Source: Deltaproteobacteria bacterium SG8_13 (GTDB taxonomy: Bacteria > Desulfobacterota > Desulfobacteria > Desulfobacterales > SG8-13). Taken from it: a stretch of 64,000 nucleotides of DNA. The stretch is from assembly GCA_001303025.1 (NCBI GenBank), contig LJNK01000017.1:91942-155941 (forward strand), read 5' to 3'. Below the pieces are notes generated by a model, which saw only the letters and a list, made by a program, of their open reading frames with translations, was not told the origin of the DNA and made no database searches. Shown here piece by piece: positions 42,416 to 62,901 of the stretch. Position 1 is the first letter of the stretch. Every line of letters starts with the position of its first letter. Position numbers and translations under genes: made by a program.

Positions 42416-42602
42416 CGGATTTTCTCCAGAAACCTTTCGCCTTCAAGATGCGTGAAAGACTCTTTTTACCAGGCGGTGAGACTTGCACGGGCTCTTTGCC
42501 GCTTCATTGGGATGATAGCCGGCTTACCCCCATTGAACCATTCGGCATCCTGCCATAACGATCTTATCAGCCTGAAAATTTACTTGCCCACCGTGTTACA
42601 TC

Positions 42603-51150: not shown

Positions 51151-51885
51151 TTATGGAACGGTCTGCTTGACCGGGCGCACCAGAATTTCCTCGACCAATA
51201 CATTTGGAGGCTGTGCAAAGGAATAAACCAGTGCTTGCGCCACATTCTCGGATGTCAAGGCATCCAGTCTTTCGCGGCGTTCACGCTTGACCTCGTCCGG
51301 GACCTTGTGTCCCCACTCGGTCCAGGTTGCCCCTGGTTCGATCACCGACACGCGAATGCCGTCCGCCCCCAGTTCCTTGCGCAAAGCGTCATGAAAGCCG
51401 ACCACGGCGAATTTTGTGGCGCAATAGACCGACCAGCCTTCATAGCCGTAACGCCCTCCCACACTTGATACGGACGAGATCATAGCTCCAGTGCGCCCTT
51501 TCATGAGCGCAATGGCTGCTTTGGTGCAATTCAATACGCCGAATAGATTGACATCAATCATCGTGACCCAGTCGTCGGGTTCGCTATCTGCAAATTGACC
51601 AAAAATGCCCACACCCGCATTATTGAACAACAGATCAAGACCACCAAATTGCTCTTTTACCTTCGCAAACAGGTTGCGCACCTGTTCGGGGTTGCTGACA
51701 TCGGTTTGAATCGCGATTGCCTTTTGTCCCAGTTCTTCCGCCAGTGCCTCAATGCGCGATTTGCGCCGAGCCGCAAGAAAGACATTCATCCCTTCTTCAA
51801 CCAACAAACGGGCGGCGGCTTCGCCAATGCCGCTTGAAGCGCCGGTAATCAAAGCGATTTTTCCAGTAAGGTTCTGCATCTGCAT
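51151..51885 (-). CDS. SDR family NAD(P)-dependent oxidoreductase
   Basis: KIALITGASSGIGEAAARLLVEEGMNVFLAARR...LFNNAGVG...YCATKFAVVGFHDALRKEL. Confidence 0.95.
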   Translation of the reverse strand: MQMQNLTGKIALITGASSGIGEAAARLLVEEGMNVFLAARRKSRIEALAEELGQKAIAIQTDVSNPEQVRNLFAKVKEQFGGLDLLFNNAGVGIFGQFADSEPDDWVTMIDVNLFGVLNCTKAAIALMKGRTGAMISSVSSVGGRYGYEGWSVYCATKFAVVGFHDALRKELGADGIRVSVIEPGATWTEWGHKVPDEVKRERRERLDALTSENVAQALVYSFAQPPNVLVEEILVRPVKQTVP

Positions 51886-51932
51886 GAGTTATCTCCTTTG
51901 TAAATGCCTCTATATTCTTTACGCGCATCGGC

Positions 51933-52090
51933 CGCGAGACGAGCGGAAGGTTCTCCGCGTAAAGCAGCGCGACAACGGCGCGATTTGCGCAGGTTCTTTC
52001 CACTCCATTGAAATGATAGCCGGCGCTGTGCGCCGGTGTTCATCTCAATGGCTTCATCTTGCGGGCGATAGCGTGGTGCGCGGCACTACC
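51933..52090. repeat. ~160-bp hairpin-containing dispersed repeat, copy A
   Basis: CGCGAGACGAGCGGAAGGTTCT...CCATTGAAATGATAGCCGGCGCTGTGCGCCGGTGTTCATCTCAATGG...GGGCGATAGCGTGGTGCGCGGC. Confidence 0.8.
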
Positions 52091-52211
52091 CGGTTGAGCT
52101 GAACAGCGGGCGTTACCCCTGTCGGCAACCCTCAGATCTTCACAAAGAACCCGGCAGGTTTCTCCCAGTCAGGTGCATCCGCCTGGTTACGCGACCTTTT
52201 GTTCTGCCGAC

Positions 52212-52556
52212 TTATTCGAGCCAGACCTGCCACCGGGCCAGTGTGTAGAGAAGGCCCGCAACAAACAGACTGCCGAAGATCTGTTTGTTGTAACGAGCCA
52301 ACCATAGCGGAAGGTAAATGTCAAAATTGTCCTGCCGTTCGTCAGTGTAGCGTGCGGCAACAGCAGTAAGAGGGCAGCGCCAGTGGTTGGCTACGATGAT
52401 GAAGACCTCAACGAATACGATAGCGATCAACATGACCGCCGTGCGGAACTCGCCGCGCCAGGCATAAACGGGGATAGCCAGGATGCAGCCGGCGAATAAA
52501 GCCCAGGCGGTTGTGTGGGCCATCTTTATGATACGAAGGGCTGCTTTCGGACTCAT
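52212..52556 (-). CDS. Hypothetical membrane protein
   Basis: 114 aa, three hydrophobic segments; RIIKMAHTTAWALFAGCILAIPVYAW. Confidence 0.7.
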   Translation of the reverse strand: MSPKAALRIIKMAHTTAWALFAGCILAIPVYAWRGEFRTAVMLIAIVFVEVFIIVANHWRCPLTAVAARYTDERQDNFDIYLPLWLARYNKQIFGSLFVAGLLYTLARWQVWLE

Positions 52557-57798: not shown

Positions 57799-57904
57799 CA
57801 CCTACCCTTTGAGCTAAGCAGCAGGCGATCCAAATGGCGCTAACCATTGAACCTTTACGATAATCCCGCAAGTTGTTTCTGCCTTCTCCAGCGATTGGTT
57901 AGGG
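57799..57904 (-). repeat. attC site, ~106 bp
   Basis: Right core GTTAGGG; left core degenerate (ACCTACC); homologous to 58524-58629. Confidence 0.8.
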
Positions 57905-58523: not shown

Positions 58524-58629
58524 CCCTAACTTTTGAGCTGAGCAGCAGGCGCACCGAAAGACGAATTTTCTCAGGCCTTTACGATAAACTGCGCAAGTTG
58601 TCCCTGTCTGCTCCAGCGATTGGTTAGCC
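58524..58629 (-). repeat. attC site, 106 bp
   Basis: CCCTAAC...GTTAGCC; shares GAGCTRAGCAGCAGGCG..CCTTTACGATAA..GCAAGTTG..CTCCAGCGATTGGTTAG with 57799-57904. Confidence 0.88.
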
Positions 58630-60785: not shown

Positions 60786-61160
60786 TTATTTGCTTTTAAA
60801 CGCCTTTTGCAGCTTTTTTAATAATCTGATTATGCTGGCCTCCTCCCCTTCTGATAGTAAAGACGTAAATTCGGTGCTTGATTCATGAAAAACCTGCATG
60901 CAATCTTTCCAGATAGCAAGGCCTTCAGGTGTTTCTGAAAGCAAAGTCAGGCGGCGATCATGGGGGGCGACCATAACTCTAATCCACTTATTTTCGAATA
61001 GAATTTTTACAATTTTCGAGACGTTTGATTTCTCGAATAGAAGCGTCTCCCCAAGCTCTTTTTGACTGATTGGTCCATGCCAAATGATTTCGTTTAAAAC
61101 GCTAAACTGTTGCTGTTTCAATGCAGTCCCGTTAGCCGCTTTTTTGTTATTTTTCTTCAT
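60786..61160 (-). CDS. MarR family transcriptional regulator
   Basis: QQQFSVLNEIIWHGPISQKELGETLLFEKSNVSKIVKILFENKWIRVMVAPHDRRLTLLSETPEG. Confidence 0.9.
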   Translation of the reverse strand: MKKNNKKAANGTALKQQQFSVLNEIIWHGPISQKELGETLLFEKSNVSKIVKILFENKWIRVMVAPHDRRLTLLSETPEGLAIWKDCMQVFHESSTEFTSLLSEGEEASIIRLLKKLQKAFKSK

Positions 61161-61281: not shown

Positions 61282-61520
61282 GTATAACGCCCGCGAGATG
61301 AGCGGAAGGTTCTTAGTATAATGCGGCGCTTCAGCGGTGTGTTATGCGGAGGTTTTTTCCTCTCCATTGAGATGATAGCCGGCGCTGTGCGCCGGGTAGC
61401 AGCTCAATGGTGTCAGCTCGGGGGCGATAGCGTGGCGCGCAGCGCCGCGCTATCGACCAAGCTCACCGGCGGCAATGGAGTACAGCGGAATTGCCGTCCG
61501 GGTGCAGCGCCTTGTTCGCC
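61282..61520 (-). repeat. Composite attC with embedded ~160-bp repeat
   Basis: Left core GTATAAC (61282-61288), right core GTTCGCC (61514-61520); interior matches 51933-52090. Confidence 0.65.
61292..61455. repeat. ~160-bp hairpin-containing dispersed repeat, copy B
   Basis: CGCGAGATGAGCGGAAGGTTCT...CCATTGAGATGATAGCCGGCGCTGTGCGCCGGGTAGCAGCTCAATGG...GGGCGATAGCGTGGCGCGCAGC. Confidence 0.8.
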
Positions 61521-61536: not shown

Positions 61537-62901
61537 TCACTCTTTCATCAAATACTTGGCCACGGCTTGATAGGCAGGCAACGAGGTTGGGTCAATCTGT
61601 GCGTTCTTAGCCGTGGGAAAAGACGCGAATCGCACGATGACCATCTCGGCGGTTGGGTCCACATAGATCGTTTGTCCATGAACACCACGTGCAGCAAAAG
61701 CACCATGATTGTTATGGAAAAGCCACCACATACTCCGGTAACTACCGCCTTTAAGCGTTTTGTAGCCAGCCTTGGCAAAGGCTTTCTTATCGCCACCGGC
61801 TCGGATGTTCTCCATGACCTCTTTCGGGAACAACCGTTGCCCATTGATCTTTCCGCAGTTAAGCATTAGAAGCCCCAGGCGCCCCAAATCTCGCAGGCCG
61901 GCACTGAGTCCGCCGCCCGCAAAAGGTGTTCCCTTGGCGTCCACGGTCATATATCCATCCTGCTCCGTGCCCATTCTGCTCCAGATGCGCTCGGACAGCA
62001 GGTGCGCAAGATCCTTGCCTGTGACCCGCGATATAATCCAGCCAAGTGCGTCCGTGTTGATTGTCCTGTAGCCGAAAGCCTCACCGTGGACGCCGTCCTG
62101 CTTGACGGTTTGTAAATATTCAAAATAGCCGTTTGGGCCTTCATAACCCCTTGGTTTCGGTAATGGGCTTGCCGCTTTTGAATAGACCCAGATATCCGCC
62201 TTTGGGTCGGAGTAGTCCTCGCTGTAGTCAAGAGCCGTGGTCATGTCCATGACCTGGCGCACAGTCGCGCTGCCAAACGCGCTGTCCTTGAGTTCCGGGA
62301 TGATTGAGGAGACCTTGACTGTATCGTCGAGCCGTCCCTCAACCACTAGGATCTCGGCTAGGAGTCCGGTAATGGACTTGGTCATCGACATGGCGGCATG
62401 CTTGCCCATCTCGTCGAGACAGCCAAAGAATTTTTCATAAACGACTCTGCCCTTGTGAATTATGAGAATACCGTCGGTATAATTTGCCGAGAGGGATTCC
62501 TTCCATGTCATCGGTTTTCCGCCACCCATTGGCTTGAAGGTCACGGCGTCAATGCCGTCATCGATTTCGTACTCTAGCGGGACCGACGGGCCGATGCCTC
62601 TACTCACTAGCTTTGTGGGCATCAATTCCCGAATGTGGCATACCGTCCATCGCAACTTTGGGAAGCTAAAGAAATCAGATTCCGGCTGCATAATCAACTT
62701 CTCAGGCGGCGGCGGGAACCCCGTCATCCAATCTAACCTCTTTGGATCAGACTCCTCAGCGTTCAACGGGTTGCCGGCCTGCACCGATGTGTTCGCCAAA
62801 CCTGCAAACAAAGCAAGCACTCCTATCAACACTACAAGTGAATTACGAATCAAATGCGACACGGCAGCCTTCCATTCCTGATTCAGGGCTATTATGTTCA
62901 T
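61537..62901 (-). CDS. Serine hydrolase (beta-lactamase/PBP-fold)
   Basis: AAMSMTKSITGLLAEILVVEGRLDDTVKVSSIIPEL (SxxK), MTTALDYSEDYSDP, RGVHGQTIYVDP. Confidence 0.92.
   Translation of the reverse strand: MNIIALNQEWKAAVSHLIRNSLVVLIGVLALFAGLANTSVQAGNPLNAEESDPKRLDWMTGFPPPPEKLIMQPESDFFSFPKLRWTVCHIRELMPTKLVSRGIGPSVPLEYEIDDGIDAVTFKPMGGGKPMTWKESLSANYTDGILIIHKGRVVYEKFFGCLDEMGKHAAMSMTKSITGLLAEILVVEGRLDDTVKVSSIIPELKDSAFGSATVRQVMDMTTALDYSEDYSDPKADIWVYSKAASPLPKPRGYEGPNGYFEYLQTVKQDGVHGEAFGYRTINTDALGWIISRVTGKDLAHLLSERIWSRMGTEQDGYMTVDAKGTPFAGGGLSAGLRDLGRLGLLMLNCGKINGQRLFPKEVMENIRAGGDKKAFAKAGYKTLKGGSYRSMWWLFHNNHGAFAARGVHGQTIYVDPTAEMVIVRFASFPTAKNAQIDPTSLPAYQAVAKYLMKE

Follow-up and report, generated by a model that had tools for sequence, protein, structure and literature searches.

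A repeated unit in an integron array of Deltaproteobacteria bacterium SG8_13 is probably a gene-less cassette that folds on the bottom strand

Two copies of a repeat of about 160 bp lie in an integron cassette array of Deltaproteobacteria bacterium SG8_13, and the locus raises the question of what this repeat is and how it came to its places. The window (the whole stretch of DNA that was analysed, 64,000 nucleotides) forms the terminal part of contig C72 in a draft genome of 3.8 Mb; all array genes in it are on the minus strand, so that plus (+) denotes the bottom strand of the array. An earlier note on the window had described the repeat at 51.9 and 61.3 kb as a hairpin element associated with attC sites. 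Both copies are present with the motifs quoted there and are 80% identical to each other over 156 nt.

The 61.3-kb copy is a full copy of a gene-less unit at 61288..61453 (+; covariance model score 141.7 bits), its limits taken from comparison of the family. Read on the bottom strand, it consists of the 5' strand of P1, P2, P3, the 3' strand of P1, and P4. It is preceded by TATAA^C at 61283..61288 (+), the start of the next cassette (R box, bottom strand) with the left crossover, and followed at 61454..61520 (+) by the upstream cassette's ordinary attC (bottom strand), and so it lies, as the earlier note had read it, between the cores of one attC. Without the unit this attC would read ..AAC GACCAAGCTCACC..GTTCGCC; its empty relatives (L008, L013) read AAC-GACCAAGCTCACC, and the unit is placed between AA and C of this sequence. 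The adjoining cassette gene encodes a MarR-family regulator (60786..61160, minus strand; Pfam PF12802/PF01047), that on the other side a serine hydrolase with a beta-lactamase fold (61537..62901, minus strand; Pfam PF00144, E 3e-28).

The second full copy (51929..52089, +; 118.3 bits) has a degenerate P4 at its right end and the left core CAT^C, and is adjoined by a cassette gene for a short-chain dehydrogenase (51151..51885, minus strand; Pfam PF00106, E 1.6e-59). Its other flank (52090..52190, +), an attC-like remainder of the upstream cassette (gene 52212-52556) that ends at GTTAC, is related to the attCs at 57801 and 58525 (family D3) and failed the automated attC test. These two attC sites (57801-57902 and 58525-58627; families D3, D13) are closely similar and bound neighbouring cassettes; their sequences suggest a recent duplication or a shared origin. 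The truncated relative reported at 42.5 kb (42503..42537, +) resembles arm P3 alone (79-86% over 29 nt); the covariance model does not match it at E<=0.01, and it is therefore a relic at most. Across the genome the unit is not abundant outside the integron: two full copies and one fragment were found. The fragment, outside the window on contig C1 (14126-14180; L027 3127-3181) of the same genome (G000), comprises the end of P3, the 3' strand of P1, and P4, and is followed by a short inverted repeat, GGGAATTAATTCCC, which resembles the region before the integrase on C80; a search for an integrase near the fragment itself found none.

On the plus strand P1 encloses P2 and P3 and is followed directly by P4 and then by the ordinary attC hairpin. 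Folded as single-stranded DNA, the 61.3-kb copy reaches -57.2 kcal/mol on this strand against -32.7 for shuffled sequences (z -8.2), which is far above chance; on the minus strand z = -3.4. The structure is conserved: in an alignment of nine compact copies 94.3% of cells are paired, 16 of the 58 pairs (33 cells) have changed on both sides with pairing kept, and neither any of 500 shuffles nor any register shift comes near the observed covariation, which bears out the hairpin proposed earlier. In P2, GGTTC stands opposite GGTTC with invariant wobble (G-U) pairs that are possible on one strand alone. The bottom strand, the one known to be recombined by the integron integrase (IntI), gives the more stable fold in 38 of 42 copies. 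Full copies are typically 120-350 bp long (median 173; one deleted copy 69); the G024-type unit is longer, about 250-350 bp, with the plan unchanged, and P2 and P3 differ greatly between subfamilies. No ORF is carried, and the body amounts to the P4 hairpin. Gene-less cassettes are a known exception to the rule that cassettes carry ORFs.

The boundaries of the unit are exact. Comparison of the family gives one unit, YA(A/T)^[C...A(A/T)]^C, and both of its ends fall on the crossover of the integron integrase, which is A^C on the bottom strand and G^TT or G^AT on the top strand. Left ends read NAA^ or YAT^ in 40 of 41 copies (35 AA, 5 AT), and the YAA^C left core is found in 35 of the 41 copies that have a left flank. 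In all 36 scorable copies the unit's opening base is paired with the one just before P4 (32 C-G, 4 compensated T-A); this pair places the left end at A^C, the bottom-strand cut of IntI, and defines the unit as [C..AA] or [C..AT]. On the top strand the unit starts with TT or AT after G and ends in G, as any cassette does. The cut made by IntI in the attC bottom strand falls between A and C (PMC2727003); GAT cores are tolerated and cleaved by IntI1 (PMC10127599), and the consensus of secondary sites is GWTMW/GNT (PMC4618277). R'/R'' boxes are perfect in L098 and L063 (GTTAAGC..GCTTAAC); most others have GAT..ATC, and four have A^TT. The T-A boundary pair in L190, L193, L197, L209, and L126 gives an A^TT crossover core instead of G^TT. 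To our knowledge, integron integrases are not expected to use such a core, the G being thought essential; the A^TT core of these copies is not predicted by current knowledge and counts against movement by IntI.

That the unit has been inserted is the right reading of the locus, since homologous empty attCs exist and identity of the element stops at fixed boundaries. A single attC of 239 bp is ruled out, because the insert is absent from empty attC relatives and is found again at other sites. As to an expanded attC subfamily, the 239 bp are an ordinary attC of about 70 nt plus a gene-less cassette, and it is the site of that cassette which is expanded and branched. No target-site duplication was found; the empty attC relatives, and the ORF interrupted in L168 once restored, have no duplicated bases. 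Orientation is constant, with P1-P2-P3-P4 on the bottom strand in all copies of the arrays examined.

Not all copies sit in attC sites: about half abut an ordinary attC, and others lie at attI, in an ORF, or at neither. By a pairing-probability test, conservative because its background includes integron DNA, 24 of 46 right flanks are attC-like at 5% background (2.3 expected) and 15 of 46 at 1% (binomial about 1e-19). Four copies (L090, L197, L126, L182) adjoin attI next to an integrase gene or what remains of one. The L090 unit borders the attI CAGTGTTAATA.., with the integrase gene starting 206 bp on; the same attI carries ordinary first cassettes at the same boundary in L117 and L147, ending GTATAA^ and GGCTAA^. 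The unit in L197 lies 252 bp before an intact IntI gene, that in L126, highly divergent in sequence, 233 bp before an IntI ORF, and that in L182 adjoins an IntI remnant; in L114 a remnant of the unit (P4 and part of P1/P3) is at attI. The integrase ORF of L126 (875-2362; 495 aa) is extended at its N-terminus by some 180 aa ahead of the integrase-like part. An ORF is interrupted by the unit in L168; removal of the unit from the sequence at CATAT^C restores the frame, and the top-strand site G^ATAT fits the published GWTMW consensus. Several right flanks (e.g., L162, L163, L165, L168) are neither attC nor attI, which counts against a cassette.

A search of 390 genomes of the order with the covariance model recovered the unit in 30, which belong to 19 of the 150 genera sampled; beyond this order-wide sample, members come from one Spirochaetales MAG (L098) and from a deltaproteobacterial MAG of groundwater (L081, L126). 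The unit is mobile between lineages: L098 and L063, the latter from the order of the window, agree at 95.2% of 165 aligned positions, their flanks are unrelated, and identity stops at the boundaries of the unit. Misbinning of the Spirochaetales MAG is possible, as the contig is 4 kb long and 1 of 198 genomes of that phylum is positive. At least nine copies are present in G024. Genome G155 has six covariance model matches (L063, L162, L202-L205), some of them partial, and its 97% complete draft gave no integrase match at E<=1e-50, which counts against movement by IntI. An integrase is present in 22 of 30 genomes with the unit and 35 of 60 without it (p 0.25), and, among good genomes alone, in 15 of 17 and 30 of 50 (p 0.04); the association is thus weak, perhaps in part from draft arrays that have lost, or been separated from, intI.

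Five loci from genomes of family f22 (L042, L043, L045, L058, L061) match the G024-type unit over its first ~70 nt, which follow a YAAC-like core, and then continue into a different repeated sequence (TATCGTTCCCTTGTTTGACGTAAATTTT..); they are possibly a second, modular family of gene-less cassettes. An IS110 element considered as partner of the L006/L030 copy was rejected, the IS gene lying beyond the attC and the ends not being shared. A phylum-wide search with a 19-nt pattern gave matches near the control level, and in a pattern scan of genome contigs true members were mixed with chance matches (e.g., Pantoea, Pseudonocardia). Plasmid searches returned the ordinary attC part alone or nothing, and the viral contigs searched one chance match and otherwise none.

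The repeat is probably an integron cassette without a gene, mobilised by IntI through its bottom strand. With ends at the integrase crossover, it is one cassette, flanked either by two others or by attI and the first gene cassette. P4 would be the whole of the cassette body, and P1 enclosing P2 and P3 would be the unit's own recombination site. IntI would excise the unit in circular form, with P4 and P1 stacked into one long stem and the cut site at its middle. The enzyme would then insert the folded bottom strand at attI or an attC junction and, less often, at a secondary site of type G^WT. How IntI would recognise it is not obvious, because an unpaired central spacer is absent (the pairing of P1 begins at the first base of the unit and runs into the core) and an asymmetric bulge is on the arm opposite to that of known attC sites. 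The lack of a central spacer and the size of the recombination site, which in most full copies measures about 140-250 nt and mostly exceeds the 57-142 nt of attC sites, are the reasons not to file it as an ordinary attC.

Insertion 3' of a short target (YAWC), fixed orientation, folded ends, and a target core that resembles the right-end core would also be shown by a non-autonomous, MITE-like transposon targeting the RYYYAAC core of attC and attI, perhaps mobilised in single-stranded form by an HUH transposase, or by an enzyme of IS110/IS1111 type that acts in trans; the copy inside the ORF of L168 and the several copies in G155, a genome without detected IntI, fit this as well, and attC-targeting IS1111 elements are known (PMC11187229). 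We nevertheless find it improbable: among about 50 copies there is no transposase-bearing relative with these ends, a transposase (DEDD) gene would not fit into units of 120-350 bp, target duplication and subterminal repeats are lacking, P1 closes exactly at the IntI cut, and the attI insertions are exactly on the cassette boundary. The attC-targeting MITE of the earlier note was correct as to insertion; with exact attI copies beside the integrase gene and all boundaries on the IntI crossover, the behaviour is that of a cassette, and MITE is not the best word.

The covarying multi-arm fold, with the invariant G-U pairs of P2 that exist on one strand only, could reflect the function of a structured RNA transcribed against the array and carried in a gene-less cassette, in which promoters or regulators can ride (PMC11014356). 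To this we give little credence, as no Rfam match reached the gathering threshold, no promoter- or terminator-like site was seen at the 61.3-kb copy, and P2 and P3 differ so much between subfamilies; the strand bias does not separate an RNA from a cassette, because the favoured strand is also the one that IntI recombines. A promoter expressing the next gene would be compatible with a gene-less cassette as to movement and a rival as to benefit. Both window copies are directly upstream of a cassette gene, and promoter activity has been shown for Vibrio gene-less cassettes (PMC6557892); the conserved features are stems, however, rather than a linear promoter, and no sigma-70-like site was predicted in the 61.3-kb region (in-silico prediction fails for such cassettes according to PMC6557892). 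This benefit is unlikely, less so than the transposon or the RNA.

Among known systems, group IIC-attC introns are structured elements in attC sites, much longer and with a conserved intron core; the unit is likewise structured and in attC, but without an Rfam intron match. IS1111 elements that target attC (PMC11187229) share with the unit the position in attC, the single orientation, and the lack of target duplication; each of them is a full insertion sequence that carries a transposase, a guide RNA, and subterminal repeats, of which the unit has none, and the unit also occupies attI at the cassette boundary. Gene-less cassettes of Vibrio superintegrons and oral metagenomes (PMC11014356, PMC6557892), several of which act as promoters, are alike in standing ORF-less in arrays within the usual cassette bounds; the unit, in contrast, is one structurally conserved family across many genera, mostly about 170 bp long, almost without a body besides the recombination site and with no in-silico promoter. 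Sites of the attC class are 57-142 nt long, with R and L boxes, a central spacer, extrahelical bases, and a terminal structure (PMC2727003). The unit shares with them the bottom-strand hairpin, the cut at the A^C core, and a variable terminal structure, and differs in length (about 140-250 nt), in its two-armed terminal structure, in having no unpaired central spacer, in a bulge on the other arm, and in long-range sequence conservation (GCGAGATGAGC). No description of a conserved, widespread family of such architecture was found in the open-access literature searched.

Integrons are viewed as gene-capturing platforms. A conserved family of gene-less cassettes suggests that integrons harbour parasites too, or a regulatory part that spreads. 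Tentatively, and with slightly less than an even chance in our judgement, the unit may be an integron satellite: a selfish element mobilised by IntI and spreading mainly for itself, whose only content is a branched, folded recombination site that lacks a central spacer and differs in class from both attC and attI. Under selection for its fold on the bottom strand, such an element would have diversified and passed from genus to genus, and probably from phylum to phylum. As its site lacks features thought to be general for attC recognition, the unit is a natural test of what the integrase needs, and it may be missed by annotation tools that look for canonical attC features and lengths.
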